From positions 1 to 64,000 of the forward strand of contig CAMHQD010000009.1 in the NCBI GenBank assembly GCA_946187345.1: a stretch of DNA of 64,000 nt. The letters run 5' to 3'. Every line of letters starts with the position of its first letter. The stretch's first letter is position 1. The stretch is from an uncultured Porphyromonadaceae bacterium. GTDB lineage: Bacteria > Bacteroidota > Bacteroidia > Bacteroidales > Muribaculaceae. The notes under the pieces are model-generated. The model saw only the letters and a program-made list of their open reading frames with translations. It was not told the origin of the DNA and searched no databases. Made by a program: the position numbers and the translations under genes. This document shows positions 39,238 to 56,390 of this stretch, in pieces.

Positions 39238-41949
39238 ATGACACAAGAGGAATTTCAGAGCATTGTTAATGCCGTCCTTTCAGCCATAAGGACAAACAGC
39301 CGGACTATCGCACAGTTAACCGCCGTGCCGTCGCTGTCAGACAGTGACAGTTTCGAGGTGAGTGGCGGCAAGCGAGTCACCTATGGCGTGTTAAAGAGCC
39401 TCATTGCGTCGTTTTCGTCAGCCGACACTGACACGCTCCTTGCTCAGATTAACCGAAAGGAGTTGCAGTCTGCGTCGATCACGACCACCGAGACCACCGC
39501 CACAATCACCATTAGAAATGTCGGCGGCACATCAATCTCATGCAGTGTGCCTGTGGCCACCGACAACCAAGCGGGCATTATCACCGCCACGCAAAAGGTA
39601 AAGATAGACAGTGCCTACAGCAATGCCCAAAGCGCACTCACGCAAGCGGGCGAGGCAAAGAGTGCCGTGCAGACACTGAACAACAAACTCGGAACGGCAA
39701 GCGGTATCGCCACGCTGGATGCCAATGGCAAGCTGAATAGCAATCAAGTGCCGAGCAATGTAGTCACTAATACAAAACTTGAGGCTGTCGAAGATAAGGC
39801 TGATGCGGCGCAGAGTGCGGCTGATGCGGCTCAAGAGGCAGCGGACGGCGCACAAGCTGCTGCCGAGGCGGTGGCCGCCACCGTGGAGGCGATGAAGAAA
39901 TACGGCTACAAGTTCATGGGCGTGGCAACGCCGACCACGGACCCCGGCACACCGAGCGAGAACGTGTTCTACCTCGCCACCACCGAGGGCGACTACACCC
40001 ACTTCCCGACCAATGCGTCAACCGATGAAGGGCCACTCTATTTCCACCTCGGAGCCGACGATGTCGCCATCCTGCGCTACACCAAGCCGACCGATGACTC
40101 GCCTATCATCTCCAACTGGAGCAAGGTGACGCTGAACCTGGCCAAAGGCACAGCGATTACCGCTATAAGAACCGCCATTGAGAACATAGCAGCCGATATA
40201 ACCGACCTTGAAGACAGCATCGCTCCGCGTCTGTTCTTCAACGGCAACGTGCTCACGGGTACAGAGGGAGAGAACCTCACCCTGGCGCAGTTCGTGGCAC
40301 TGACCGCCGGCACGGCATTCGCCTTTGCCCGGAAGAAAGGCGTAGTTGTGACTCTCTCCACGGCTGACGGCTTGAAGAACTACCAGTGGAAAGGCACGAC
40401 ATGGAACAACACCGATGACTGGCGCAACTTCGGCGGCTCGGCTGCCGTGGGTAACTGCTACAACGTCACCAACGAGGCGAGCGACCTGCTGCCTGCCGGT
40501 ACGGGCTATTTCACCCTCACCACCGCCATCGCGGCCGTGAAGACCAAAGGCGTGCAGGGTGTGGGTATGCAGATAACCTTTGCCGTTGGAGAGTCCACTT
40601 GGAAGACTTACCAGTATGTGGGTGCCGACGTGACCGACACCAACTTTGACCTCGAGACCAACTGGGTTGACATGGCGGGTATCACCGCAGGCAACGAGGC
40701 AGTAATCAACATTCTCGACCTTTGCGGCCCTTGCACGGTTGCCCCTTACTACAACCTGCAATATGCCATCGCCGCGCTTGTTGACAAGCAGAATGCGACA
40801 GGTATCACCTACGCAAAGAGTGGCCTTGTCATCACCTACCCGATAGGCGAGAACCTTTGGGAGGCCAAGCAGTTCAACGGCATCGTCGAGAACTTCGGCG
40901 AGACCGGCCTGTGGAAAGACTTCGGCGGTGGCGGCAGTGGAGAGGTAGAGACCAGCGACACCCCTGTCAGCGGTGGCGAGGACGCGTTCAGCACAGGCGG
41001 CGCTTATACCCACCTCGCAAAGGGTGTGGAGATGCTGGAGGATAGCGAGGCACAGCAGCGTGAGGATTACGTTGAGGGCTACAACTACTTCTATCTCATC
41101 AACGAGAATGGAGACCGCATCGGCAACGTGTGGCGCATACCCAAAGGCGGTGGCGGCTCATCGACGACCAAAGTGTTCAGCGTGAACTTCCAACAATCGC
41201 CGTTCTATGCCGCCGTTGGTGGTAATTTTACCTTGCGTGCGTCTATCCGCAGCGCGACCGAGGAAGGTGGCGTGACGACTACCGACAGCATCGAGTCTAT
41301 CCAAATCGTTGACCGCGACACCGCCCAGGTTCTGTTCAGTGACAGCACCACCCACGCGTCGAGCGAGAGCCGCACCGACTACTCGTTCACCTTTGACCTG
41401 TCCTCGTTCTTCACCTCGGCAAGCACCCGTCGCCTGCAACTGATTGCTGTGGACGGTGCCGGCGATAGGGCATCACGCACTATCAACGTGGTGGCCGTGG
41501 ACGTGACTTGTCAGTGTGTGCAGGTGCTCAACTACACCAATGCGAGTGTGGTTTTCACCACCGACACCGTCAAGTCGTTGCAGATGTACCAGTTCCCGAA
41601 CAACCAGGGCACGATTACCGCCGTGGTTGACATATTTGTGAACGGCGAGTGGGTGAACATCGGCACGGCGCAGGTCACCGACAGTTATGCGCACAACATC
41701 ACCGTCAACCCGACCGCTTTGGGCCTGACGCACGGCGCATACCCCATCCGTATGTACGGCACCGACAACGCCAGCAGCGTGCGGGGCAACACCGTCTATT
41801 CGACGATTATGGTCGTTGACACGGCGAGTTCACTGCCCATCGTCGCCATGCGCTACAACGATGCCAACAATGGACAAGTGCGGCTCTATGACACCGTGGC
41901 CCTTGAAGTCACCGCCTACACGCCCGACGCACAGGAGGGCGAGGTGTAG
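39238..41949 (+). CDS. giant tail fibre protein, N-terminal part
   Basis: The 903-residue frame begins with a tail-attachment region, then a fibre shaft: QAGIITATQKVKIDSAY, LGTASGIATLDANGKLNSNQ and an Ala-rich coiled coil (AADAAQEAADGAQAAAEAVA). Repeated modules of about 80 residues follow (FNGNVLTGTEGENLTLAQFV, NVTNEASDLLPAGTGYFTLT), then Ig-like domains. It stops at TAG 41947-41949 in the middle of an Ig-like domain. A -1 shift (GTG TAG read as GTA GTT) continues the domain into the next frame, so this is probably the N-terminal part of one protein of about 2,740 residues. Confidence 0.85.
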   Translation: MTQEEFQSIVNAVLSAIRTNSRTIAQLTAVPSLSDSDSFEVSGGKRVTYGVLKSLIASFSSADTDTLLAQINRKELQSASITTTETTATITIRNVGGTSISCSVPVATDNQAGIITATQKVKIDSAYSNAQSALTQAGEAKSAVQTLNNKLGTASGIATLDANGKLNSNQVPSNVVTNTKLEAVEDKADAAQSAADAAQEAADGAQAAAEAVAATVEAMKKYGYKFMGVATPTTDPGTPSENVFYLATTEGDYTHFPTNASTDEGPLYFHLGADDVAILRYTKPTDDSPIISNWSKVTLNLAKGTAITAIRTAIENIAADITDLEDSIAPRLFFNGNVLTGTEGENLTLAQFVALTAGTAFAFARKKGVVVTLSTADGLKNYQWKGTTWNNTDDWRNFGGSAAVGNCYNVTNEASDLLPAGTGYFTLTTAIAAVKTKGVQGVGMQITFAVGESTWKTYQYVGADVTDTNFDLETNWVDMAGITAGNEAVINILDLCGPCTVAPYYNLQYAIAALVDKQNATGITYAKSGLVITYPIGENLWEAKQFNGIVENFGETGLWKDFGGGGSGEVETSDTPVSGGEDAFSTGGAYTHLAKGVEMLEDSEAQQREDYVEGYNYFYLINENGDRIGNVWRIPKGGGGSSTTKVFSVNFQQSPFYAAVGGNFTLRASIRSATEEGGVTTTDSIESIQIVDRDTAQVLFSDSTTHASSESRTDYSFTFDLSSFFTSASTRRLQLIAVDGAGDRASRTINVVAVDVTCQCVQVLNYTNASVVFTTDTVKSLQMYQFPNNQGTITAVVDIFVNGEWVNIGTAQVTDSYAHNITVNPTALGLTHGAYPIRMYGTDNASSVRGNTVYSTIMVVDTASSLPIVAMRYNDANNGQVRLYDTVALEVTAYTPDAQEGEV

Positions 41950-41984: not shown

Positions 41985-44900
41985 GTGAACCGCAGTTCCG
42001 TGGAGACCGTGAACCGCCAAATTAGCGGTGTGGAGCAAGGCACGACACTTGCCTACCAAGCCACGAGTGGAGCCAGCGCGAGCGGCACAATCAGCCTCAC
42101 CGTCAACGGCAGCGTGATTGATGCGGCACTGACCACCGGCGCGATATGTGCATTCGACTTCGCCAACCGCACCAATAGCGAGGCAGGAAACCACGAAATC
42201 GTGGACGGCAACTACGAGATAGCCGTGAAAGGCTCTAACTGGTCGTCCAACGGCTTTAAGAACTATCTCGGCGGCAACGCCCTTGCCGTGAAAGAGAACG
42301 TGACGGCAGAGTTGAACCTCGCTCCGTTCGCCACTGTAGATGTCGCCAGCACAGGTTTCGCCCTGCTGTTCCAGTTTGCCTCGAACAACATCGCCGACAA
42401 CGATGCCCACCTCATGGAGTGCTACGACGAGAACAACGGAGCGGGCTTCTACATCACCGGTCAGGCTATCGGCATCAAGTGCGGCAGCAAGGTCGAGGAG
42501 AGAACCTACCCCAACGGCGAGCGCATCACCGTTGGCATCCTCGTTGAGCCATCGAGCAAGTATGTGGAGTTCAAAGGCACGCGTTACTCGCTAATCAAGT
42601 TGTTCATCAACGGCGAGGAGAGTGCCTGTGTCGAATACACCTCCAATAACGACCTATTGCAGGACAGTACCATCAAGTTCAGAGGCACCGAGGGTGACTT
42701 CTACCTCTACTACCTGATTGCGTGGATGCAGTACATCGCCTGGATGCTGCAGTTCTTCAACTACCTCGTCAAGTTGACCGACACCTCGGCGATGGTGACG
42801 GAGAACACTTTCGAGGACGTGTGGAGCGGCAACACCTCCAACGGCCCCACGGCAGCGAAACTCGCCGCAAAGGGTATGCCGTACTTGATTGAGGCACCGT
42901 TCAACGGCAGTGACATCACCGCCCTGGACAACACCACCTCGACGAGCCGCAACAACTACATCACGCTGACCTACCGCGACCCGAGCCGTCCGTGGCGCAA
43001 CTTCGTCGCTACCGATGTGCGCCGGCGCAACCAGGGTACGACCTCGGCGAAGCGTCCCATCAAGAACGCCCGTTACTACCTCGCCAAGAAGAACGGCTCG
43101 ACCTACGACAAGTCCACCAAGACCGGCGGCACAGTGGTAACGCCCGAGCTGTCGAGAACCGAGTTCATTGCCGCCTACGGCACCGAGCACATCGCGCTAT
43201 ACGACGAGGCTGTGGCACTGTTCGCCAAGAACAAGGTGCGTGTGAGAGAGGACAGCATTCCCGTTGACCTCATCACCGTCAAGGTGGACTACTCGGACAG
43301 CACCAACGCCAACGACTGCGGCGCGTGCAACATGATGAACACCGTCTATCGCCGTCTGGGAGCGCAGTACATGACGCCTGCGCAACGCTACTACGACGGC
43401 ACCTACGACAACGGCGATGTCCATTTGACTGGGTTGCAGTTGAACCACTCGACGGCAAACCACCCGATTGCCATGTACCGCGACTTCAGCGGCACCGGGA
43501 CGAGCCTCAAGTTCTACGCCAAAGGTAACTGGAAGGAGGACAAGAACGAGCAGATGGCTCTCGGCTTCAAGGACACGCCGGGCTACAACAAGGGCTGCCT
43601 CAACTACGGCGACTTCGTTGAGTTCTTCGGCACGTCGAGCGAGACGCTGGCGCAAGCCGTGACCCGCTTCCTCTCGGCAAGCGTCACGAAGGACACGAGC
43701 AAAGTGTACCTTATCTCGCAGTACTGCGGCTCGTCCTACAAGTTCTACCGCTATCGCAATGGCGCGTGGACCGACACCACCGGCACAATGCGGCAGGTGA
43801 ATGGCGCATGGGTCATCACTGGCGACGTACTGAACCCAGTGGATGGTTTCGAGTTGCTTGCCTACCAGGGAATGTGCTGGTGGCAGGGCGTTGCGAGCGT
43901 GAGCGACTTCATGGCTCCCAGCACCAACATCTCCTCATGGGTGCAGAAACTCATCGATAAGGAGGGTAGCGGTGTGTCCGGCACCACGTTCCCCGCGTGG
44001 ACCAACTACTACGAATGCATGATTGACGATGACCAGCTGCAGGCCGACCTCGCCATGGGGCGCAAGGCTCCCTACTGGCTCTACCGCCTGCTCAAGTTCT
44101 GCAACGACTGCGACTACTCGCAGGGTGCGGACCTCAGCGGCGACTGGCACGACAATCTCCACAAGTACGTCAACCCCTATGCGCTATATGTTTACAACGC
44201 ATTCACCGACTATCTCGCCGCCGTTGACCAGCAGGCCAAGAATATGCAGCCCATGTTCTTCCTCGACGAGGGCGGTTCGGTAGAGGGAGGCGTGTACAAG
44301 TACAACGGCGTGGCCACCGAGGATTGTGCCGTGCGCATGTACCCCAACAAGGTGTACGATGCCGACACCCTGCTCGGCAAGGACAACGCCGGTGGCGCGA
44401 CCGTCGATCCCGAAGTTGACCCCAACAAGCCGAGTGACCCGACCACTGGCTACAACAACCCCTATGCCGGTTGGGGCTCCGTGTTGTGGAACAACATCTA
44501 CCGCCAGCCAACCGTCAAGGTCGATGCGAACAACGAGACCGACATGAACACCATCGTAGCGGCCATGCGCAACCTGCAAGCCACTGTCGATGGGGTCACT
44601 CTGTCGCCGTTCTCGCCTGAGGGCTGCAAGCACTTCTTCCTCGACAACATCTGCAAGCGTTGGCAGAAGACTGTCAGCTCGTTTGACGGCGAGAGCAAGT
44701 ACATCGACAGCACCGAGAACATCGACACAACGGTTGAAGACAACACCACCTACTTCTACGCGCTGCACGGCTTGCGCCTCACCTCGCTGCCGTCGTTCAT
44801 CGACCGCCGTTTCCGCGTCCGTGACGGCTTCTACCGCACTGGGTTATTCTTCAGCGGTGTGTGGTCGGCGCGTATCAACGGCAACGTGAGCACGTCAGGC

Positions 44901-47474
44901 ATCACTATCAAGGCCGCCAAGACGGGTTACTTCGGTGTCGGTAGCGACAACTCGGGCAACCTCCGTGAGAGTGTGTACCTTGAGGCCGGACAGAGCCACC
45001 GCTTCACGCTGTTCGACCACACCGAGGGCTCATTGCTCTACATCTACCAGGCGAACCGCATCAAGGAGATAGACCTCAGCGAGATTTCCATTTCGCAGAG
45101 CGAGATTGTGTCGTTCGGTGCTTTCACCCTCGCAGAGAAGATAATCCTCGGTGGTGCTGACCACGTCAACATGGGCATCGGCTCTTACGCCCCCATGACC
45201 GAGCCGCCGCTGGGCTCGCTGCCGTTCCTCAAGGAGTTGAACATCGTCAGCACCCTTGCCACGGCCATAGACGCGTCGCAGTGTCCTCGTCTGGAGACTT
45301 TGGACGCGACCGGTTCACCGCTTGCGAGCCTCGCCCTTGCCGAGACTTCGCCTGTGAGTGTGCTGACCCTGCCTGCGACTATCTCGCGCCTCACGCTCGT
45401 CAACCTGCCCAACCTGTCGTATGAGAGCGGTTGCCTCACTTTCGAGGGCATGAGCGCGTTGACGCAGATACGCATCGACGGCTGTCCGCTGCTTGATGGT
45501 GCGAAACTGCTCAACGATGCAGTGACCGCAGGCGCATCGCTGACCCGCATCCGTCTTGCGGGCATTGACGTAACCGGAAAGAGCGACATCCTCGTTGCCC
45601 TGCGCAACATGGGTGTGCGTGGACTTGACGCAAACGGCGATGCCATTGCTGAGAGCAACCAATGTTCCGGCTTGGCTGGTGTGTGGACGTGCAGCGATGT
45701 GATAGAGGCCACCTTGCTCGCCAGCCTGCAAGCCTACTTCCCGTTGCTGACCATCTACAACGCCCAGTACACGGTCGTGCAGTTGGATGACACCAAGACC
45801 GCGCCTGCCGAGGACAGCGTCATCAACCTTGACAACGGCACTTATGCCAACGACGGCAAGATGGGCTACGTCGCCAGCGGCCATATAACCAAGATTAAGG
45901 CAATGATGCACGTCTATAAGTCTGTGTACGACGAGAGTGCACAGAAGATGAAGTGCTACCAACTTGACGATGACGACATCGAACTGCTTGCCAATGGCGA
46001 GTCCTTTGACAGGACCGATGCAGGTGGCGAGGGCTACGATGTGATGCTCGGCCTGCCTCATTTTTGGTACAAAGGAGTGAACGACGCGCTCAACAGGAAG
46101 AAATACCTCGTCCTGTCGAGCGAGACCGGCACACCCCGAAGTACGGCATCCGCCATCAGCCGTGTGTCGCTTGCTGCAACCATTGACGGGGCGGCCAACC
46201 CTGCTTTGGTCGCCGAGTACGTGGCCGTGTATATGTCGGCGTTCAATGTCGGTGACGTGTTCTCTTCCGCCAACCTGGGCCAGTCGTCCACCACGAAAGT
46301 CTATCAGATGAGCGTGGAGGGCATGAAGCAGGTGCGCTGGCCGACCATGAGCAGTTCGACCACCGGCATCCTGTTCCTCGACAAGGACGGCAAAGTCATC
46401 AGCAAGTTCGCGCCGTCGATCGCCGACAGCATGACCGACTTCCTCGCCGGTGACTACGTGTTCATAGACGTGCCTGCCAACGCCGTGATGTTCGTGTTCA
46501 CCGTGCCCATCACGTTCGGCAACACCACCACACTCGACGAGAGCGAGGCTATCGCCGTCAGCAGTACGGCGATTGAGGCTATCGAGCCCGACTGGGTGGA
46601 GCATGACTTTGAGCTCATCGGCACCTACAAGGCTTACAAAGACGCGCTGCAACGTCTGCGCAGTGTGAGCGGTGTGGCACCCACCCGAGGCTCGGGAACA
46701 TCGACCACGAGCAGCTACTGGCAATACGACGCCAACGGCAATGTCGTTTCGGCCTTGCCCGACAGCAGCCGCACGTTCAACATGACGTACCTCGACTTCC
46801 GAAACCTCTCGCGCTGCCGTGGCGCGGGCTACCAGCTTGTGGACTACGAGATGCACAAGTGCGTTGACCTGCTGTTCCTCGCCTGCTTCGGCACCCGCAA
46901 CAGCCAGTCGCTGTTCGGCAACGGACAGGGCAACGGCACGCAGACCGGCGGCAGCGACATCTACACGACCAACATCGAGCGTGACGCGTCGCCGCTGCGT
47001 GAGGCCTCGCGGCCCCGTTTCTTCGGCTTGGAGGACTGGTGGGGCAACTGCTGGGAGTTTATGGACTTCGTGGCCATCAATGTCAAGAGTTACGCCGAGT
47101 ACTACAAGAACAAGTGCGAGGTTCCTGCCGGCAGCGATACGGACAGGGTTTGGCACATCCGCATGCCCGACGGCACCGAGCGCGCCGTCAAGGGCGACCC
47201 GAACAGCAACTCAGGCGAGATTGTCCGCTTGCGCTGGGGGCGCTTCTGCGATGTAGTGCCGAGCAAGTTGCACACTAACACCAGCTACAACCAGTACTAC
47301 TGCGACATGATGGAAATGAACAATTCTACTGGTCGCGTCGTGGCGCGGTCCGGGTACAGCGTCAGTGCGTACTACGGCTTCGTCTGCGTGGTCGCGAGCT
47401 TCGCTTCCTCGTACTCGAGCGGCAGCTTCGGCGCGCGGCTTGCCTTCAGGGGCGCAATCGAAATCGTCGAGTAG
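41985..47474 (+). CDS. giant tail fibre / receptor-binding protein, C-terminal part; DGR target
   Basis: The frame is open from 41907; GTG 41985 is a formal start, but -1 frameshifted continuation from the gene before is more likely. Domains in order: rest of an Ig-like domain; a ConA/LamG-like domain (about 42130-42760); a large unrecognised part; a Leu-rich region (about 45180-45750); and a C-terminal FGE/C-type-lectin-like domain with CVDLLFLACFGTRN, FFGLEDWWGNCWEFMDFVAI and a GARLAFRGAIE end. The variable repeat encodes its last third (Tyr, Ser, Val, Phe at mutable sites). This fold is the usual display scaffold of DGR targets, so the protein should bind host receptors. Confidence 0.87.
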   Translation: MNRSSVETVNRQISGVEQGTTLAYQATSGASASGTISLTVNGSVIDAALTTGAICAFDFANRTNSEAGNHEIVDGNYEIAVKGSNWSSNGFKNYLGGNALAVKENVTAELNLAPFATVDVASTGFALLFQFASNNIADNDAHLMECYDENNGAGFYITGQAIGIKCGSKVEERTYPNGERITVGILVEPSSKYVEFKGTRYSLIKLFINGEESACVEYTSNNDLLQDSTIKFRGTEGDFYLYYLIAWMQYIAWMLQFFNYLVKLTDTSAMVTENTFEDVWSGNTSNGPTAAKLAAKGMPYLIEAPFNGSDITALDNTTSTSRNNYITLTYRDPSRPWRNFVATDVRRRNQGTTSAKRPIKNARYYLAKKNGSTYDKSTKTGGTVVTPELSRTEFIAAYGTEHIALYDEAVALFAKNKVRVREDSIPVDLITVKVDYSDSTNANDCGACNMMNTVYRRLGAQYMTPAQRYYDGTYDNGDVHLTGLQLNHSTANHPIAMYRDFSGTGTSLKFYAKGNWKEDKNEQMALGFKDTPGYNKGCLNYGDFVEFFGTSSETLAQAVTRFLSASVTKDTSKVYLISQYCGSSYKFYRYRNGAWTDTTGTMRQVNGAWVITGDVLNPVDGFELLAYQGMCWWQGVASVSDFMAPSTNISSWVQKLIDKEGSGVSGTTFPAWTNYYECMIDDDQLQADLAMGRKAPYWLYRLLKFCNDCDYSQGADLSGDWHDNLHKYVNPYALYVYNAFTDYLAAVDQQAKNMQPMFFLDEGGSVEGGVYKYNGVATEDCAVRMYPNKVYDADTLLGKDNAGGATVDPEVDPNKPSDPTTGYNNPYAGWGSVLWNNIYRQPTVKVDANNETDMNTIVAAMRNLQATVDGVTLSPFSPEGCKHFFLDNICKRWQKTVSSFDGESKYIDSTENIDTTVEDNTTYFYALHGLRLTSLPSFIDRRFRVRDGFYRTGLFFSGVWSARINGNVSTSGITIKAAKTGYFGVGSDNSGNLRESVYLEAGQSHRFTLFDHTEGSLLYIYQANRIKEIDLSEISISQSEIVSFGAFTLAEKIILGGADHVNMGIGSYAPMTEPPLGSLPFLKELNIVSTLATAIDASQCPRLETLDATGSPLASLALAETSPVSVLTLPATISRLTLVNLPNLSYESGCLTFEGMSALTQIRIDGCPLLDGAKLLNDAVTAGASLTRIRLAGIDVTGKSDILVALRNMGVRGLDANGDAIAESNQCSGLAGVWTCSDVIEATLLASLQAYFPLLTIYNAQYTVVQLDDTKTAPAEDSVINLDNGTYANDGKMGYVASGHITKIKAMMHVYKSVYDESAQKMKCYQLDDDDIELLANGESFDRTDAGGEGYDVMLGLPHFWYKGVNDALNRKKYLVLSSETGTPRSTASAISRVSLAATIDGAANPALVAEYVAVYMSAFNVGDVFSSANLGQSSTTKVYQMSVEGMKQVRWPTMSSSTTGILFLDKDGKVISKFAPSIADSMTDFLAGDYVFIDVPANAVMFVFTVPITFGNTTTLDESEAIAVSSTAIEAIEPDWVEHDFELIGTYKAYKDALQRLRSVSGVAPTRGSGTSTTSSYWQYDANGNVVSALPDSSRTFNMTYLDFRNLSRCRGAGYQLVDYEMHKCVDLLFLACFGTRNSQSLFGNGQGNGTQTGGSDIYTTNIERDASPLREASRPRFFGLEDWWGNCWEFMDFVAINVKSYAEYYKNKCEVPAGSDTDRVWHIRMPDGTERAVKGDPNSNSGEIVRLRWGRFCDVVPSKLHTNTSYNQYYCDMMEMNNSTGRVVARSGYSVSAYYGFVCVVASFASSYSSGSFGARLAFRGAIEIVE
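47330..47441 (+). repeat. DGR variable repeat (VR)
   Basis: These 112 bp match the template repeat at 47656-47767 except at 18 positions, and every one is an A in the template. All 85 non-A positions are identical. Twelve AAY codons of the template are all changed: in order Y, S, V, S, Y, V, S, F, Y, S, S, F. The GC-rich end (GGCGCGCGGCTT) is the likely initiation-of-homology site. Homology falls off after it with non-A changes. Confidence 0.97.
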
Positions 47475-47510
47475 CGAGCGTGAGCGTCGGCGAAAAAATC
47501 GGCAAAGCGT

Positions 47511-47566
47511 AGAGTGAGAGTCGCCGTAAGGCGGCTGCTCACTCTCCCTTTAGCCGCGAAGCGGCT
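47511..47566 (+). terminator. two hairpins downstream of the variable repeat
   Basis: Hairpin 1 (47511-47545): AGAGTGAG and AGTCGCC pair with GGCGGCT and CTCACTCT around a GTAA loop. Hairpin 2 (47552-47566): AGCCGC-GAA-GCGGCT, followed by an AT-rich stretch ending in TTTTTTG. They may end the fibre transcript; a DGR target-site cruciform is an alternative because such structures follow VRs in other phages. Confidence 0.65.
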
Positions 47567-47617
47567 TCGATTTTGAAAATTTTTTGTTCCAGGTGGCACA
47601 AATCGCAAAAAATGCCG

Positions 47618-47625
47618 TACCTTTG
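47618..47625 (+). promoter_or_regulatory. -7 box for the template RNA
   Basis: TACCTTTG fits the Bacteroidetes -7 box. It lies 30 bp before the template repeat. A TTTGAAAATTTTTTG stretch upstream is A/T-rich, but no TTTG stands at the usual 20-nt spacing. Confidence 0.55.
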
Positions 47626-47632
47626 TCGCCGA

Positions 47633-47910
47633 AATCAAGGCGGACGACCTCTTTGTGGTCGCGTCGTGGCGCGGTCCGGGAACAACAACAATGCGAACTA
47701 CGGCTTCGTCTACGTGAACGCGAACAACGCTTCCTCGAACTCGAACAGCAACAACGGCGCGCGGCTTAATTTCAAGGTACACCGCCCATGTTTCAGCGTG
47801 GGCAGGTCGCAAATCGTTCCTCTACGTCGGCGACGTGTCGCCATGACGCACGGGCGAGGGGTCTGAGCCTCGGCAATCCTTTGTGGAGGAAGTTAATTTC
47901 CTCCACGAGA
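47633..47910 (+). ncRNA. DGR template RNA (TR plus structured spacer)
   Basis: The expected RNA starts after TACCTTTG, carries the template repeat (47656-47767) and a spacer with hairpins at 47784-47803 (GCCCATG / CGTGGGC) and 47883-47906 (perfect 9-bp GTGGAGGAA / TTCCTCCAC). In the Bordetella phage DGR the spacer after TR is needed to prime cDNA synthesis; the same place is filled here. The ends are estimates. Confidence 0.75.
47656..47767 (+). repeat. DGR template repeat (TR)
   Basis: A 112-bp copy of the 3' end of the fibre gene, in which the first 25 bp have no A and the rest is rich in AAC codons (27 A in all). AAY codons mutate at A without giving stop codons, a known DGR design. The repeat lies between VR and reverse transcriptase on the same strand. 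Confidence 0.97.
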
Positions 47911-47929
47911 AGACCGAAACAAAAGAAAC

Positions 47930-49285
47930 GTGGCAGAATTGCCGGTAGCGGAAGCGACAGTGACGAGCCACATCACCCTGAAGGCAATGAAACGATATGG
48001 GCACTTGATACCGTTAATCATCGAGCAGGGAAACATGAGCACCAGCTTTGATGATGTGCTCGGCGACTTGAAGAACGAGAGCCGCAAGGCCACTCTGCGG
48101 GCAAGGAAACAGGACATCATCGACCGATTAGCAGCCGCCATCCGTGACGGCTCTTTTCGTATCACCACCGTCCATGAGATGGAAGTCACCGACGGCCCGA
48201 AGCGGCGTGTCGTGCAGGCACCGCCCGTCATCCAGCGCATAGGCTGCCACGCCGTCATGAACATCGTTGACCAAGTGTGCTACAAGTCCATGATATCCAC
48301 CAGCGCGGCGAGCATCAAGGGGCGAGGTATGCACTACCTGCACAAGATTGTGAGCGATGACCTGCGGCTTTACCCCGACGAGACCACCTACTTCTACAAG
48401 TGCGACATCAAGAAGTTCTACGAGAGCATTGACCAGGACATCATGTTCGAGTGTGTGTGCCGGTACATCAAAGACAAGACGCTGCTGCCAATACTCGAGA
48501 ACTTTGTGCGTGTCATGCCGTCGGGTTTGGCAATAGGTCTGCGCTCGTCGCAGTGCTTCGGCAACATACTGCTCGACCGCGTTGACCACTTCATGAAAGA
48601 AGTGGTGAAAGTGCGTTATTACTACCGCTACTGCGACGACATCGTGATGCTGCACAGCGACAAGAAGACTCTTTGGCTGTGGCGCGACATCCTCGTTGAC
48701 CAACTCGCGTTGCTCGGCTTGTCAATCAAAGACAACGAGGTTGTGCGTCCTGTCGCCGATGGGCTGGACTTTCTCGGCTTCGTCCACTACGGCACGCACT
48801 CGCTGTTGCGCAAGCGAGTGAAGAAGCGGTTCGCCCGGCACATGGCGAAAGTCAAGTCACGAAAGCGGCGTGTCGCCCTCATGGGCTCGTTCAAGGGCAT
48901 GGCGGTGCACGGAGATTGCAATCATTTATATTACACAATAACAGGTTACCAAATGAAGAAATTCAGCGAAATGGGCGTGACGTACACGCCAGCCGATGGG
49001 AAAAAGCGTTTTCCTGGCAAAACTGTCCGACTGGGCAATATCAGCAACAAAGTGATTGAAATTCACGACTACGAGACTGGCATCAAGACGAGTCAGGGCG
49101 AAGACAGGTATGTGGTGAGTTTCTATGACCCACAGAAGAAAGAGTGGGGCAAGTTCTTCACAGCGTCCGAGGAGATGAAAAACATTCTCGATCAAATCAG
49201 CGACATCGAGGATGGTTTTCCCTTTGAGACAATTATTGAAAGCGAATTGTTCGACGGCAACAAGGTCAAATACAAGTTCAGTTGA
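47930..49285 (+). CDS. DGR reverse transcriptase
   Basis: The 451-residue protein has RT domains with YKCDIKKFYESIDQDI, the DGR-clade motif IGLRSSQ (IGxxxSQ, 202-208) and catalytic YCDD (234-237), then GLDFLGFVHYG. The GTG at 47930 gives 19 extra residues; ATG 47987 gives MKRYGHLIPLII, the usual DGR-RT start, and is a good alternative. After about residue 330 there is an extension of roughly 115 residues (KKRFPGKTVRLGNISNKVIE, GEDRYVVSFYDPQKKEWGKF) that may be an OB-like nucleic-acid-binding domain. No Avd gene is seen nearby. The enzyme copies TR RNA with errors at A. Confidence 0.93.
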   Translation: MAELPVAEATVTSHITLKAMKRYGHLIPLIIEQGNMSTSFDDVLGDLKNESRKATLRARKQDIIDRLAAAIRDGSFRITTVHEMEVTDGPKRRVVQAPPVIQRIGCHAVMNIVDQVCYKSMISTSAASIKGRGMHYLHKIVSDDLRLYPDETTYFYKCDIKKFYESIDQDIMFECVCRYIKDKTLLPILENFVRVMPSGLAIGLRSSQCFGNILLDRVDHFMKEVVKVRYYYRYCDDIVMLHSDKKTLWLWRDILVDQLALLGLSIKDNEVVRPVADGLDFLGFVHYGTHSLLRKRVKKRFARHMAKVKSRKRRVALMGSFKGMAVHGDCNHLYYTITGYQMKKFSEMGVTYTPADGKKRFPGKTVRLGNISNKVIEIHDYETGIKTSQGEDRYVVSFYDPQKKEWGKFFTASEEMKNILDQISDIEDGFPFETIIESELFDGNKVKYKFS

Positions 49286-49361: not shown

Positions 49362-49847
49362 ATGGAGAAAATGTACGGCGCCGTTGAGCGTTTCGACGGC
49401 ATTCAGCAGATAGGTCGCACCACCTTTGAGGTGTTCTACGGCTTCGGTGAGGACGAGAACGGCAAGTTCCAGTATCGGCAGACGCTGCCGTACAAGCCGC
49501 CGTTTGATTTCGTCAAGGACATGGTGTTGACGCAAATCAATGCCAACACACAGGAGAAAATCACGTCGGGGTTCAAATGGAACGATTTGCTTGTGTGGCT
49601 CAGCGAGGCGAACCAACTGAACTACTCCCGCGACTTCCTCGTCGCCTCGCACCTGCATGAGCGCGGCGAGCAGTTGGAGTTGCCCACCTACAAGTTCGGC
49701 ACCGACGATGCCCCCATTTACTACACTTTCGAGACCTTCGAGGAGTTCAAGTCATTCAGTGCGGCATGGGCGAAGCACATCAGCGACACCGTGCGCGACG
49801 GCTGGCACGAGAAGGCGAATGTTGACTGGTCGGGCTACGAGATTTGA
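49362..49847 (+). CDS. hypothetical phage protein between DGR and lysis genes
   Basis: The 161-residue protein (MEKMYGAVERFDGIQQIGRT) has VKDMVLTQINANTQEKITSG and ends VDWSGYEI. It follows its own late promoter and is closed by a terminator. It may be a fibre assembly factor or a virion protein; it does not resemble Avd, which is a small basic helical protein. Unrecognised. Confidence 0.6.
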   Translation: MEKMYGAVERFDGIQQIGRTTFEVFYGFGEDENGKFQYRQTLPYKPPFDFVKDMVLTQINANTQEKITSGFKWNDLLVWLSEANQLNYSRDFLVASHLHERGEQLELPTYKFGTDDAPIYYTFETFEEFKSFSAAWAKHISDTVRDGWHEKANVDWSGYEI

Positions 49848-50024: not shown

Positions 50025-50507
50025 ATGAACACTGAATATCTTAACCGGCTATTTTTCTCGGTGATTGGAGCGGTAACCACCGCGTTATCGCCGACATTAC
50101 CCTACATTTTGCTTTGCACGGTGGCAGTCCTTGCTGACTGTTACACCGCATGGCGGCTTGGCAAGCGCGTCAAAGCGGCGCACCCTGATAAGACTACCAG
50201 TAACACAGGCAAGTTCAACAGCCGCCATTTCCGTTCCGTGCTCGTCACATTGGCAGAGGTTTATGCCCTGCTCGTATTCGCGCACTTCACCCACATCTAC
50301 ATCACCGGCGAGTTACCGTTTAACGCATTGAAGTTGGCGGCTGGTTTGGTCATCGGATGGCAGGTGTGGAGCTGCCTTGAAAATCTGTCAAGCTGCAATG
50401 GTGCCAAATGGGCAAAGATGCTGCAAAACGTGATGATTGACAAAACCGAGCGGCACTTCGATGTGAATTTGAACGACCTAAAAGAGAGCGACGATGATAA
50501 CGATTAA
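50025..50507 (+). CDS. phage holin-family protein
   Basis: The 160-residue protein has membrane segments near 8-35 (SPTLPYILLCTVAVLADCYT), 68-85 and 98-118 (LKLAAGLVIGWQVWSCLENL) and a charged, acidic tail (ESDDDND). Position directly before the amidase gene, with 14 bp overlap, and the topology support a holin of the type found in Bacteroides phages. It should open the inner membrane for the endolysin. Confidence 0.82.
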   Translation: MNTEYLNRLFFSVIGAVTTALSPTLPYILLCTVAVLADCYTAWRLGKRVKAAHPDKTTSNTGKFNSRHFRSVLVTLAEVYALLVFAHFTHIYITGELPFNALKLAAGLVIGWQVWSCLENLSSCNGAKWAKMLQNVMIDKTERHFDVNLNDLKESDDDND

Positions 50508-51279
50508 GCGTGGCAGCAAGGGCGATGATGTCGTGACCTTGCAGAAAGCATTAGGTATCACGGCCGATGGTGATTTCGGTCCCATGACAGAGTCCGCAGT
50601 CAAGTCGTACCAGTCGGCTCACGGATTGACCGCTGACGGCATCGTCGGTGCAAAGACGTGGGCGGCACTGGGAGTTAAAGACACATCCAAGTGCGTTGAT
50701 CCTTCGGTGGTGTATCTGCCGTTGAGTGTCCATGTGAGCAAGTTGCCCGGGCGCAGCATCAAGTACCTCGCCATCCACTTCACGGCAGGCAGCAGTTCGG
50801 CACCTGGTAGGGCAAGGAGCATCAAGCACGTTTTTGAACAACGAAAAGCAAGCGCAGATTTCGCCGTGGACGATGCCGAGATGGTGCAGTTCAATCCCGA
50901 CTTGCGCAATTACTACTGCTGGGCGGTGGGCGACAAGAAGGCAGCCGTGGTAAATTGTCCGATTGCCAACAACCGCAACACTATCTCAATCGAGATTTGC
51001 AGCACGCTGCGCAAAGGCACGAGCGTAGCAGTACCAAACCATGATGGCTGGGAGTTCACCGAGGCGGCACTCAACAACGCTGTGAAACTCGCGAAAATCC
51101 TCATGGCGAAGTTTGATATACCCATCGAGCGGGTTGTGCGCCACTTCGACATATCGGGCAAGTTGTGTCCGGGCATTGTCGGATGGAATACCTGCTTCAT
51201 CTACACCGCCGACGGGCGAAAGACGAGTAAGCGCAACAATAGCGACAAGTGGGAGGACTTCAAAAAGCGACTGGTATGA
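50494..51279 (+). CDS. endolysin: peptidoglycan-binding domain plus N-acetylmuramoyl-L-alanine amidase
   Basis: The 261-residue protein has an N-terminal PG_binding_1 domain (GSKGDDVVTLQKALGITADG, 7-60) and an Amidase_2 domain with the zinc His in YLAIHFTAGSSS (His95), a central IANNRNTISIEIC and VVRHFDISGKLCPG (second His and Cys). It cleaves the amide bond between muramic acid and stem peptide. No signal peptide is present, so it depends on the holin. Confidence 0.92.
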   Translation: MITIKRGSKGDDVVTLQKALGITADGDFGPMTESAVKSYQSAHGLTADGIVGAKTWAALGVKDTSKCVDPSVVYLPLSVHVSKLPGRSIKYLAIHFTAGSSSAPGRARSIKHVFEQRKASADFAVDDAEMVQFNPDLRNYYCWAVGDKKAAVVNCPIANNRNTISIEICSTLRKGTSVAVPNHDGWEFTEAALNNAVKLAKILMAKFDIPIERVVRHFDISGKLCPGIVGWNTCFIYTADGRKTSKRNNSDKWEDFKKRLV

Positions 51280-52149: not shown

Positions 52150-53334
52150 TCACTTCAAACCGTCAAGAACCAGTCTAATTGCATCCGTTGCCTGTTGCGG
52201 TGTGACTGAGATATAGCTGTATAGTGCCGTAGTGACCTTATCGACGCGATGCCCGAGAATGTAATCCACCACGCTCTCGCTGACCCCTGCCTGAAAAGCG
52301 TGCTGGGCAAACGACTTGCGAGCCGAGTAGTAAATAATTTTCTTGACACCTGCGAGCTGTGCGAGTTTAGGCATAGACCGTGTGAACGCGTCGTGCATCA
52401 GCGATTTTCGCGACGATCTGCCAAACTGCAAAATGCCGTCACTCGCTTTGTATCTGCCAATGATGCCCAATGCCTCATCGGGAATGTCAAATTCGACAAA
52501 CTTATTCATTTTGGGTTTGTTCTTCGTTTTTTCTCTGACATAGTGGATGGTTTTGCGGCACTCATTAAAGTTGATGTTAAGCAAATCCACCATGTTAATG
52601 CCACCGAGATAGTAACTCAACATAAAAGCGTCTCGGGCACAGCCGACTGTCGTGCCGCACTCCACGTCACGGATGCGCTTAACCTCATCAACCGACAACC
52701 ACGACTGGCGGACTTCCTGCGCCGGCAAGTCATACCCGATGAATGGATTGTAAGCAGGAACAGCATAGCGGCACCGTTCAGCGAAATTGAGCAGCACCAT
52801 GATGAACACGAGTTTGTCGCGGCGTGTGTTGGCCGTATAGCCGCGTTCCAGCATGAACTTATTGAACCCTGCGAGTGTGAGGTGGCTGATACGCTCAAAG
52901 AGCATATTCTCGTCGATGAACGCAGTGATGCAGCGGTAGTGTGCGTTGTACCCTTTGCGTGTGCCGTCAGCGATGTTGGCCACTTCCATATATTTCTCAT
53001 AGACTTCCTTGAAAGTCTTGTGCCGGTTAAACTCCGAGTGGGTGATTGAATAGACCAGCTCGGGGCAAGTCAGGCCGTCAATGTAGCCCAGTTCGTCAAT
53101 GGCGTCCTGGTAGTGCTGCACCATCTTGCGGAGTTTTGTGTTCAGGAAAGCGGCATCGCCACGATTGACCACAATGCCGTTCTTGAACTCGCGTGCGTTG
53201 TCTATAATAATAGATGTTGGGATGTAGCGTGTCTCGCCGTTGTGTGCGACCGACACCCTCACTTTGTGCCGTCCGCCCTTGAGTGCCTTTGTCGGCACGA
53301 TGACTGTTCTGATAGTTGCCATGATTTTCGACAA
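52150..53334 (-). CDS. tyrosine-type integrase
   Basis: The 394-residue recombinase has an arm-binding N-terminal region, a SAM-like core-binding domain (KTFKEVYEKYMEVANIADGT) and a catalytic domain with MLSYYLGGINMVDL, YYSARKSFAQHAF (box II Arg, His replaced by Ser) and ILGHRVDKVTTALYSYI (His and nucleophile Tyr). In box I the usual TGLR Arg is replaced (GGIN), as in many Bacteroidales integrases. It should insert the phage at an att site near the right end. Met1 (53334) or Met5 (53322) is the start. The converging early/late transcripts end before it. Confidence 0.92.
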   Translation of the reverse strand: MSKIMATIRTVIVPTKALKGGRHKVRVSVAHNGETRYIPTSIIIDNAREFKNGIVVNRGDAAFLNTKLRKMVQHYQDAIDELGYIDGLTCPELVYSITHSEFNRHKTFKEVYEKYMEVANIADGTRKGYNAHYRCITAFIDENMLFERISHLTLAGFNKFMLERGYTANTRRDKLVFIMVLLNFAERCRYAVPAYNPFIGYDLPAQEVRQSWLSVDEVKRIRDVECGTTVGCARDAFMLSYYLGGINMVDLLNINFNECRKTIHYVREKTKNKPKMNKFVEFDIPDEALGIIGRYKASDGILQFGRSSRKSLMHDAFTRSMPKLAQLAGVKKIIYYSARKSFAQHAFQAGVSESVVDYILGHRVDKVTTALYSYISVTPQQATDAIRLVLDGLK

Positions 53335-53518: not shown

Positions 53519-54526
53519 TTAATCCACTTCTCTGTCGTATCTGGATTTTATGGCATGAGCACGCGCTGATTCTTGGGAATAGTGATGCAACTCGTAACTG
53601 TTCACGATGTTCTGCCATAGCACATAAAATCCGGGGCACACACTGGCTATGGGATTTAAATAGATATACGAAATCCAGATTGCGAACGATGTGTTTTTCT
53701 GCCCCAGCGCCTGCGCGCCCTCAATGGGGAATCGCTCGTGAACGCCTATGTAGTGCCCGGCCGCGTACTGCACAAAACAGACCACCGCCACCACCGCGGC
53801 CATCGCTATCAGGAACCACACACCCACTTCGGCGTGGGCAATGTTCTTCACCGTGATGCCGGTGGTAATCATCAGCGAAAATGCCCACAGATAGAACGAG
53901 AGGTCGGTGATGGATATGATGCGCTTGTGCAGGCGGTGGAAGTAGTGCTTTATCACGTAGGCCACTGCCATTGGGAGCACCAGTATCTCGCACACTCGCT
54001 CCAATATCAGCAGAAACGACTGTAGCACGGTGTATTCCGATTTCAGTTCGATGAGTGGAAATAGAAGTGGAATCGTCAGGGCTGCGAGAAAATTGGAGAT
54101 GAACGTGTAGGTGGTCATGCTCGCGAGGTTGCCGCCAAGTTTCTCGGTCACAACGGCAGCCGCTGTGGCCCCGGGGCCAATAATGCAGATAAGCACGCCC
54201 TCGGCCAGAATCAGGCTACGCCCATGCAAGTCAAAGCCCTTAATCAGACCAAACACCATCGCCACGGTAATTATCTGAAAGGCGCACACCATCCAGTGCC
54301 ACCGCGTGGGGCGCATCTTGTGGAAATTCACTTTGCAGAATGTCACCAGTAGCACCAGAAACAGCACCACCGGCATGAGTGTGTCCATTATAGGGCTGAA
54401 AAAGTCGGCGGCATCGCTAAGCCCGGGTATTAGTGCGAAGATGAGGTAGATTGTGGCACCGGCCGCAATGGCGCATGGCAGTGTCCACTCTTTTATGAAG
54501 TTAATCACTTGTTTCATCATAGCCAT
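53519..54526 (-). CDS. bile acid:sodium symporter (BASS)-family transporter
   Basis: The 335-residue protein has about nine or ten hydrophobic segments and the BASS-type motif GVLICIIGPGATAAAVVTEK with the later EGAQALGQKNTSFAIWISY. It should carry an organic acid with sodium across the inner membrane; the substrate is unknown. It overlaps the upstream helicase gene by 26 bp and is the last gene of a host operon. The prophage lies directly after its 3' end. Confidence 0.82.
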   Translation of the reverse strand: MAMMKQVINFIKEWTLPCAIAAGATIYLIFALIPGLSDAADFFSPIMDTLMPVVLFLVLLVTFCKVNFHKMRPTRWHWMVCAFQIITVAMVFGLIKGFDLHGRSLILAEGVLICIIGPGATAAAVVTEKLGGNLASMTTYTFISNFLAALTIPLLFPLIELKSEYTVLQSFLLILERVCEILVLPMAVAYVIKHYFHRLHKRIISITDLSFYLWAFSLMITTGITVKNIAHAEVGVWFLIAMAAVVAVVCFVQYAAGHYIGVHERFPIEGAQALGQKNTSFAIWISYIYLNPIASVCPGFYVLWQNIVNSYELHHYSQESARAHAIKSRYDREVD

Positions 54527-56390
54527 TGAGTTTGCGGATATAGTGGTAGAGTTTGTTATAGAACGGATGCCGGGTCATGGTGGTGGCGTCGCCCAGTACA
54601 AATAGTTTCATTCTGGCCCGGGTCATGGCCACGTTCATGCGGCGCAGGTCGCGCAAGAATCCTATTTGGCCGTCGTCGTTAGAGCGAACCAAGCTAATCA
54701 TAATCACGTCGCGCTCCTGTCCCTGAAATCCATCCACGGTGTTCACCGAAATCTGGCGCCGTAGCGGCTTGAAGTATTCGCTTTTCTTGAGCAGTCGGCG
54801 CAAGTATTGAACCTGAGCGCGATAAGGCGATATGATGCCCACGTCTATTCGCTCGTCAACTATTCGCTCGCGCCCTATTCGCTCAAAGTAACTCTGCAGT
54901 GTGGCCAGTGTGAGGGCGGCTTCGTCACGATTGATGCGCCCGAAACTCTCTCCCACAAACTCCTCGCGGTACTCACCGGCAGTGTCAATCCATGTGATGG
55001 CTGTATCCAGGTCCAGTATGCTGCGACTGTGCACCTCGGGGGCGCACTGAACGCGCCCATCATAGAACCAGTTGCTCGAAAATCGCATAATATCTTCATT
55101 CATGCGATATTGTACCTGTAATAGGGTGACGGTTTGCGGCTGATTCTCCACAATTTTCTCCATCAGTGTTTTGCCCAGACCGCCGTTGACGGCTTCGATG
55201 CTCTTCACAGTGGGTGGCAACTGGCAGTGGTCGCCGGCCAGAATCACGCGGTCGGCCTTGCGAATCGCAATCCAGCATGCCGCTTCCAGGGCTTGGGCCG
55301 CCTCGTCGATAAACAGGGTGCCGAAGCGGTAGCCATCCAGAGTGCGGCTGGCACTTCCGGCAAGGGTACACGCTATAACTCGGGCTTGCCCCATTAGGGC
55401 ATTATGGATACGGATTTCCAGTTCCGTGATGCGGCTCTTGAGGCGGTCCACCTTCTGGTGGTAGTTGTTGTCGCCGCGTTTTCGCGAGCCTTGAACCTCG
55501 CGCAAGGCCTTGCGCAAAGCCCACAGCTGAGGATAGTCGGCGTGTGCTTCATAGCGACGCTCGTAGGTGAGCGCAAGCATTTTGTCGGTTACACGTGCCG
55601 GATTTCCTATCCGCAACACGTCTATGCCTCGGTTGCCCAGCTGCTCGCTAATCCAGTCCACGGCCATGTTGCTCTGCGCGCACACCAGCACCTGGTTTTC
55701 GCGCCGCAGGGTTTCGTAGATGGCTTCAACCAGAGTCGTGGTCTTACCGGTCCCCGGTGGGCCGTGAACCACAGCCACGTCTTTGGCGGTAAGCACGCTG
55801 TTCACGGCCTTCTGCTGACTTGCGTTGAGCCAGGGAAACTGAATGGGCTGCAGTTGCAGCGTGGCCGTGGGTAGCAGGCCGTAGAACGTGTCGCGCAACT
55901 CGGCCAGGCGATTGCCTTTGGCATTGATTGCGCGTTCCAGTGCCTCGGTCATGAGGCGGTAAGTGGTTTCGTCGAACGACAGTTGCACGCCCAGCCGCTC
56001 AGTGCTCTGCAGATGGCTCACGGTGGCCGGATCGCTCACGCTCACCACCATGCGGTTCTCCTCGGCGTAACTCACGGTGCCGCCAAACTTCAGGTAGTGC
56101 AGACTGTCGCTACCGTCAACGCTGAAGAACATTACCTGCTTGCCGGGCTCGAAATTGTGCTCGATTTCGGTGTCGTCATCGCGGAAAATCTCAATCACCA
56201 GCGAATTGAGCGAGTTGTAGTAGGAACGCCCTGTGCGTGCGGGATACCAGCAGTCGCCTCGCTTCACTTTGCGTGCCACGCCCCACGTCTCGGTGAGCCG
56301 CTGAAATTCCTCTTTCTCGGCTGTGTATTCCAGTTTCAGCAGTTCGCGTTGACGGAGCAGTGATTGTATGGCGTTAGGTTTCGTACTCAC
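54501..56390 (-). CDS. Upf1/IGHMBP2-like SF1 DNA/RNA helicase
   Basis: The 629-residue protein has the SF1 motifs: Walker A GPPGTGKT, CAQSNMAVDWI (Ia), DEAAQA (II), GDHCQLPPT (III), QYRMNEDIM (IV), VDGFQGQERDVI (V) and NVAMTRARMKL (VI). The N-terminal part (about 1-170) matches the beta-barrel region of this family. It acts on nucleic acid in the cytoplasm. It is coupled to the DUF4294 gene (4 bp overlap) and to the transporter gene. Confidence 0.92.
   Translation of the reverse strand: MSTKPNAIQSLLRQRELLKLEYTAEKEEFQRLTETWGVARKVKRGDCWYPARTGRSYYNSLNSLVIEIFRDDDTEIEHNFEPGKQVMFFSVDGSDSLHYLKFGGTVSYAEENRMVVSVSDPATVSHLQSTERLGVQLSFDETTYRLMTEALERAINAKGNRLAELRDTFYGLLPTATLQLQPIQFPWLNASQQKAVNSVLTAKDVAVVHGPPGTGKTTTLVEAIYETLRRENQVLVCAQSNMAVDWISEQLGNRGIDVLRIGNPARVTDKMLALTYERRYEAHADYPQLWALRKALREVQGSRKRGDNNYHQKVDRLKSRITELEIRIHNALMGQARVIACTLAGSASRTLDGYRFGTLFIDEAAQALEAACWIAIRKADRVILAGDHCQLPPTVKSIEAVNGGLGKTLMEKIVENQPQTVTLLQVQYRMNEDIMRFSSNWFYDGRVQCAPEVHSRSILDLDTAITWIDTAGEYREEFVGESFGRINRDEAALTLATLQSYFERIGRERIVDERIDVGIISPYRAQVQYLRRLLKKSEYFKPLRRQISVNTVDGFQGQERDVIMISLVRSNDDGQIGFLRDLRRMNVAMTRARMKLFVLGDATTMTRHPFYNKLYHYIRKLNGYDETSD

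Follow-up and report, generated by a model that had tools for sequence, protein, structure and literature searches.

A putative hankyphage-type diversity-generating retroelement in a Muribaculaceae prophage

A stretch of 64,000 nucleotides from an uncultured Porphyromonadaceae bacterium (family Muribaculaceae in GTDB; GenBank assembly GCA_946187345.1, contig CAMHQD010000009.1, positions 1 to 64,000 of the forward strand), hereafter the window, very probably carries the core of a hankyphage-type diversity-generating retroelement (DGR) in an integrated prophage. This identification is drawn from the differences between the template repeat (TR) and the variable repeat (VR), which are confined to template adenines, from the DGR-type motifs of the adjacent reverse transcriptase (RT), and from two relatives in which the TR is fixed and the VR variable. 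The type of cassette is already known, and the window provides a clean further hankyphage-type case, in a Muribaculaceae prophage, with a direct test between isolates. Of possibly greater weight are a link between DGRs and RT-3, an orphan RNA family of Rfam (with RT-17 linked likewise by its position), and a candidate accessory protein that hankyphage lysogens growing in culture would allow to be tested. RT-3 and the accessory domain together may help to explain Bacteroidales DGRs that have no recognisable Avd. We do not claim that the links of RT-3 to DGRs and of the accessory domain are unpublished.

Pairwise comparison of the VR (47330..47441, + strand), which codes for residues near the C-terminus of a tail fibre, placed the TR at 47656..47767 (+). 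Both are 112 bp long, with a start-to-start distance of 326, and they are mismatched at 18/112 sites, all 18 of which are A in the TR (nine A>T, nine A>G and no A>C). The TR is composed of 27 A and 85 non-A positions, and the latter are identical in the VR (85/85); the probability that 18 mismatches would all land on the 27 A by chance is 1.7e-14. All 12 AAY codons of the template are changed in the VR frame, as are two further codons (TAC>TGC and AGC>GGC). An original prediction, made from the sequence alone, had put forward the same repeats, the same A-only differences and the same 12 changed codons, and every one of these coordinates and counts was confirmed. A repeat finder stretches the VR/TR match to 122 bp at 82%: after 47441 the VR reads GCCTTCAG against AATTTCAA in the TR, with two more A changes followed by T>C at 47444. 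The RLAFRG end is kept at the VR 3' boundary in 7/7 aligned fibres, though the TR encodes other residues, and the stretch 3' of 47441 therefore seems not to be rewritten; the VR limit first proposed at this position was right. The fixed tails 3' of the VR differ in more distant family members. The VR 3' end, GGCGCGCGGCTT, would represent a boundary resembling the initiation of mutagenic homing (IMH) site. From the VR end to the end of the fibre open reading frame (ORF) there are 33 nt including the stop, which thus places the VR at the 3' end of its target. When the TR was searched against the source assembly (131 contigs), it matched the two repeats of the window and the corresponding two repeats, TR and VR, of a second DGR (contig C116), and nothing else.

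Two further loci carry nearly the same phage as the window (94% over 10.1 and 13.1 kb): L105, from the uncultured Bacteroidales RUG12310, and L003, from IMG/VR 3300026549 (L-numbers are the labels given to loci in this analysis). Among the three phages no substitution was found in the TR (0/112) and one in the stretch between TR and RT (1/162), and the spacer between VR and TR differed from that of the window at 0/181 sites in L105 and at 0/180, plus a one-base gap, in L003. Differences from the window amounted to 18/112 (L105) and 18/109 (L003) in the VR, and to 114/1356 and 116/1356, respectively, in the RT. The VR of each phage departs from the common TR at A sites only, and the three VRs therefore differ from one another only at template-A positions. 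Variation restricted to these positions with a fixed TR, as predicted, thus holds between isolates, together with one lost codon in L003, and non-A differences in the VR, which had been named as the refuting observation, were absent between the three. In L003 (8400-8546) the AAC run is one codon shorter in the VR than in the TR, an in-frame loss of 3 nt that perhaps arose by slippage during cDNA synthesis. The non-coding DNA that separates the fibre stop from the RT (47475-47929 in the window) is near-invariant in the three phages, and the window RT is 8% off the other two; by these counts, the non-coding part is kept far better than the RT gene.

The same RT was also to be sought in related prophages, and 71 RT loci were examined, 51 of which have a same-strand TR/VR pair of at least 80 bp (48 pairs distinct). 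With the 3' end trimmed, these 48 pairs have 538/1295 template A sites changed (264 to T, 238 to G and 36 to C) and 9/4032 non-A sites changed. Three loci (L015, L017 and L112) have one TR and two VRs; the second VR, which marks a second target gene, lies on the other strand and differs from the TR at 18, 18 and 20 sites, respectively, all of them A.

The RT is encoded by an ORF of 451 aa (47930..49285, +), identified through motifs, profile matches and alignment. Both IGLRSSQ and YCDD, which had been singled out beforehand, are found in it, and the former fits the (I/V/L)GxxxSQ motif described for DGR-type RTs (PMC3521204). Seven residues are invariant in a 35-row RT alignment (G193, R195, S197, Q198, C225, D226 and D227). 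The GTG at 47930 is probably too early a start, because the matching frame in L002 (the second DGR of the assembly) and in L106 has a stop there; GTG 47960 or ATG 47987 is more likely. Relatives of this RT in annotated phages are those of BS-TP4 (50.8%), BKO1-TP3 (48.6%) and hankyphage p00 (about 48%; 47.9% over 96%). Low-level matches of the RT to models of group II intron, retron, Drt3a and UG-RT enzymes could point to a retron or defence RT next to a chance repeat, but all of those scores fall far below the curated NCBIfam cut-offs. The best solved chain for the RT is 8ub7 (328 aa; aligned to residues 58-334 of the 451-aa ORF), which we take to be the BPP-1 RT, and the A-only repeat, with the chance value given above, recurs in 51/71 loci. 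The TR/VR pattern of the relatives refutes a retron or defence RT, to which we allow next to no probability.

The structured spacer between TR and RT contains the RT-3 RNA (Rfam RF03068) at 47812..47971 (+), with 45.2 bits against a gathering score of 40.5. RT-3 scored at least the gathering value in 18/18 scanned members of the RT family of the window, 5-73 nt after the called TR end, and reached 146.6 bits in hankyphage p00; it was found in 0/24 other sources scanned (L138 and sets of 15 and 8). At distant RT loci another family, RT-17 (RF03020), was detected in 7/23 (L046, L047, L066, L068, L070, L071 and L077), placed 21-31 nt after the TR in L046, L066 and L070. Bordetella phage BPP-1 carries RF03022 (Phage_DGR) at the TR-RT position, where the window has RT-3 instead. 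Because of its position, RT-3 would be the spacer part of the DGR TR transcript, and the distribution of RT-3, RT-17 and Phage_DGR suggests that each clade of DGR RTs has an RNA type of its own. Covariation in our own alignment of 32 spacers bears out the RNA structure: 17/18 pairs are changed on both sides and 86.5% of cells are paired, compared to 62.5% when shuffled and 29.5-44.4% when slid, the structure having been derived from the same 32 spacers, which favours the pairing figure.

Residues 342-450 of the RT ORF (about 110 residues; 48953..49282, +) match phrog_19665, a family of unknown function that occurs as a separate gene in some other DGRs. A profile of this C-terminal domain found it in 69/69 family loci (39 + 30, many being near-identical copies, and L031 a partial RT), in 67 of them within a frame of at least 300 aa; in L019 and L113 a stop interrupts the RT frame and leaves the domain in a shorter one. 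A further 38 more distant RT loci were searched, with a TR/VR pair called in 35/37 (not in L055 and L068; L079 lay outside the pair test). In 12/38 of these the domain forms an ORF of its own 3' of the RT; in L045 it shares a frame of 418 aa with the RT, and in L055, L057 and L058 it occupies a frame of 207 aa that overlaps the RT end. In LoVEphage it also sits in a frame behind the RT. L046, L067, L072 and L073 show a 4-base overlap between the ATG of the separate gene and the RT stop. In L068 the aligned part of the domain starts 7 bases before the RT frame end, with no ATG there, and the other seven separate genes follow the RT after a gap of 221-515 bases. First-round matches were weak (five loci besides LoVEphage, E 2e-5 to 4e-4, among 13099 ORFs), all on the RT strand and behind the RT, and later rounds of the profile included its own members; unaided, 6/10 separate proteins match phrog_19665 with E no higher than 0.01 (1.4e-5 to 0.0076). 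Among 101 genomes of the genus there were 10 domain matches, nine in frames of 435-535 aa and one, close to where its contig starts, in a frame of 69 aa. Since the domain is fused to the RT here and separate but coupled to it elsewhere, which is a usual mark of co-acting proteins, we read it as a putative accessory factor.

Searches for the known accessory protein gave no match to bAvd (PF22296) on the contig of the window, a model that may miss a diverged Avd. Neither was bAvd found in any of 38 records (30 distant and 8 family, many of them fragments), nor in p00, BS-TP4 or LoVEphage, with 123 bits for the BPP-1 control. Because 0/30 distant records have bAvd, its absence is no special mark of a hankyphage-type DGR. 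Elsewhere in the assembly, two bAvd-like ORFs score below the cut-off of 40 (C45:950-1252 at 24.9 bits and C14:8923-9243 at 20.8 bits); bAvd relatives include ribosomal intervening-sequence proteins. The protein encoded by the separate domain gene may be one of the conserved hypothetical accessory genes, CH1/CH2, that Wu 2018 reportedly lists. A hankyphage paper draws an 'Avd' (PMC12135933), which was not found with PF22296 here, and Benler et al. picked a small ORF as Avd by isoelectric point (pI) and mass.

Several observations weigh against the overall interpretation or, where they concern the C-terminal domain, against its accessory role. No TR/VR pair was called in 16/71 family loci, and four more have a shorter or opposite-strand pair only. 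A hairpin of the BPP-1 type was rejected, the best stem in the 130 bp after the VR being about 70 bp off with the loop GTAA, whereas phage DGR hairpins are described at 4-34 bp after the VR with a GRNA loop (PMC3240598). This inverted repeat (8+7 bp; 47511..47545, +), located by sequence inspection and, for the inner stem, by a stem search, is as likely to be a terminator as a DGR hairpin. The claim of a complete DGR stands for TR, VR and RT, but has to be qualified for bAvd, which was not found on the contig, for the fibre frame, which is broken, and for the post-VR hairpin, which is off the published distance. The pI of the C-terminal domain is 5.5, unlike that of Avd, a basic protein, so the domain is not simply Avd renamed. 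The domain was not found in 22/38 distant RT loci, although in L050 and L051, which are among them, the sequence all but ends with the RT. L045, L055, L058 and LoVEphage have the domain but no RT-3 at the gathering score. In addition, in 15/30 distant records bAvd and the domain are both missing, which weakens the view that the domain replaces Avd. Finally, the fibre gene of the window is split into two ORFs in different frames, with a break near 41.95 kb, and the prophage may not make the whole fibre.

The 5' part of the fibre gene is an ORF of 903 aa (39238..41949, +), residues 473-902 of which match positions 338-770 of phrog_14959; the 3' part, an ORF of 1829 aa (41985..47474, +) in which the VR sits, matches positions 793-2494 of the same family and phrog_5302 ('tail protein'). 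A single stop-to-stop frame was found in L105 (2704 aa), L003 (2745), L106 (2776) and L004 (2500, ending at the locus edge). The giant tail fibre announced in the original prediction is therefore seen as one frame in these four relatives and as 903 + 1829 aa in the window. The break may be true or an assembly error. Were it true, the DGR might be a relic that was formerly active, its A-only pattern a fossil, in a phage whose broken fibre gene leaves the cassette serving no phage now. The absence of the break from all four relatives fits such a history, as does L002, the second DGR of the assembly, which already has two non-A changes. A single frame break in a contig of a metagenome-assembled genome may, however, be an assembly error; the RT ORF is open, and 0/85 non-A differences imply no visible decay since the last rewriting. 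Equally, the TR, the spacer and the TR-RT stretch have 0, 0 and 1 differences from L105 when the RT has 114/1356, and we consider a relic unlikely.

A different objection concerns the C-terminal domain, which could serve the RT only as a structural tail, or be a passenger, rather than a DGR accessory factor. No Pfam family reaches its cut-off on the domain and no solved structure matches it at E 0.01 or below (best PDB match E 0.27), and that it was not found in more than half of the distant loci, counted above, agrees with such a role. Against this stand the 12/38 distant loci in which it is a separate ORF behind the RT, four of them with the 4-base overlap of ATG and RT stop, and the finding that 9/10 matches in the 101 genus genomes lie inside frames of at least 435 aa; a mere tail or passenger is thus doubtful, though less improbable than a relic DGR. 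Returning to the domain as a possible accessory factor, we tentatively propose an Avd-independent DGR type, in which RT-3 and an accessory protein of about 100 residues, RT-fused or in a coupled gene, replace Avd and the Phage_DGR RNA, and in which the second A of AAC hardly ever changes to C, unlike with the BPP-1 RT in NAC. The proposal stays somewhat short of an even chance, lowered by the distant records that have neither bAvd nor the domain.

In the mechanism that we envisage, the TR would be transcribed jointly with the downstream RT-3 RNA. A candidate promoter of this transcript, judged from its letters, is TAccTTTG (47618..47625, +), which resembles the Bacteroidetes -7 box and is present also in L002, L105 and L003. 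The RT would recognise RT-3, prime near the TR 3' end and copy the TR with errors opposite A, and the resulting cDNA would replace the VR, starting at the GC-rich GGCTT boundary and running upstream. This would alter the fibre on its C-terminal face, so that the phage could try new receptors. The domain of about 110 residues at the RT C-terminus might act as the accessory factor, in RNA handling or cDNA integration and perhaps in place of Avd; this is the least certain step, for which we see the balance as about even.

We assign the cassette to the hankyphage type on two features that it possesses, RT-3 between TR and RT and an RT with the phrog_19665 domain. The DGR of hankyphage p00 (BK010646, from Bacteroides dorei; PMC6199706, PMC12135933) likewise has a very large fibre ORF with the VR at its 3' end, followed by TR and RT, with the same C-terminal domain on the RT and RT-3 after the TR. 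The aligned C-terminal part of the fibre is only 32% identical, however, and p00 is a Mu-like transposable phage whereas the window holds an integrase prophage. Published sequencing reads show that the related hankyphage DGR is active in culture, as presented in PMC12135933. The best annotated relative is Bacteroides phage BS-TP4 (PQ571277), with a 64-kb genome, an RT-3 RNA and, besides the RT similarity given above, a fibre that is 45.1% identical over 1829 aa (compared to 27% over 87% of the fibre for the listed hankyphage p00 records); it differs in a TR-VR offset of 1012 with two small genes in between. BPP-1 shares with the window the TR/VR/RT logic, adenine-only mutagenesis and a structured RNA between TR and RT, but has bAvd between VR and TR and an RNA of family RF03022, and a search of its first 6 kb (the cassette region) gave no match to the C-terminal domain. 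In the cassette of the window none of the BPP-1-type features was found, namely bAvd near the TR, a GRNA hairpin at 4-34 bp and RF03022. The comparison with BPP-1 drawn originally was correct as to a DGR, and the nearest described relatives are instead the Bacteroides phages BS-TP4 and hankyphage. The RT-17 loci resemble the window in their A-only TR/VR pairs (6/7, not L068; some with 0 to 2 non-A changes) and in having an RNA beside the RT. In contrast to the window, their RNA belongs to another Rfam family and the C-terminal domain is not fused, being a separate gene at the RT end in L046 and L068 and not found in L047, L066, L070, L071 and L077.

The error spectrum of the family contrasts with that of distant DGRs in its A>C changes. 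When AAC sites are changed, the first A goes mostly to T and the second A mostly to G, and the second A of AAC became C at 3/390 sites in the family. At isolated AA sites, a 3' A>C change was seen at 4/531 in the family versus 43/269 in distant DGRs. Outcomes at both A of the 531 family sites are interdependent (mutual information (MI) 0.304 versus 0.015 in within-VR shuffles, 0/1000), with the outcome pairs AT (2), TG (1) and CG (0) near absent, and the dependence persists when each TR cluster is represented by a single VR (24 pairs, 261 sites). In 36 pairs from distant DGRs, this dependence is weaker and of a different pattern (MI 0.158 versus 0.025). Substitutions in DGRs are called essentially random in PMC3521204, and PMC12875486 gives strong context effects measured for BPP-1, including 26.8% G misincorporation by its RT in NAC, i.e. 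A>C. We do not put forward the AA neighbour rule as a property of the RT, as amino-acid selection (few Ile, Cys, Arg and Thr) is inseparable from RT bias in natural VRs. The contrast in A>C alone is claimed between the family and distant DGRs, and it may stem either from the enzyme or from selection acting on the fibre. As for a possible C-type lectin (CLec) fold of the variable domain, no Pfam match was obtained, and the phrog_5302 tail protein match spans this domain.

The DGR lies downstream of genes for terminase, portal, major head protein and tape measure. The RT is followed by an ORF of 161 aa (49362..49847, +; phrog_19239, pI 4.8, no Pfam match), by an amidase endolysin (50494-51279) and by a tyrosine integrase (52150 to 53331 or 53334, - strand). 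In L003, too, an ORF of 161 aa comes after the RT. Host-like genes, an SBF transporter and DUF4294, are found beyond the integrase, and the arrangement points to an integrated prophage with its right end near 53.3-53.5 kb. The close RT relatives L106 and L107 come from Muribaculaceae of buffalo rumen, which makes a Muribaculaceae host probable and the rumen a likely habitat. The second DGR of the assembly, L002, occupies the 3629-base contig C116 and has an RT 86% identical to that of the window, a TR and a VR of its own that differ at 13 A and two non-A (C>T) sites, an RT-3 RNA, and a target gene cut by the contig end. On the host side of the integrase, a helicase-like ORF (54501-56387, -) matches part of the PADLOC MkoA models.

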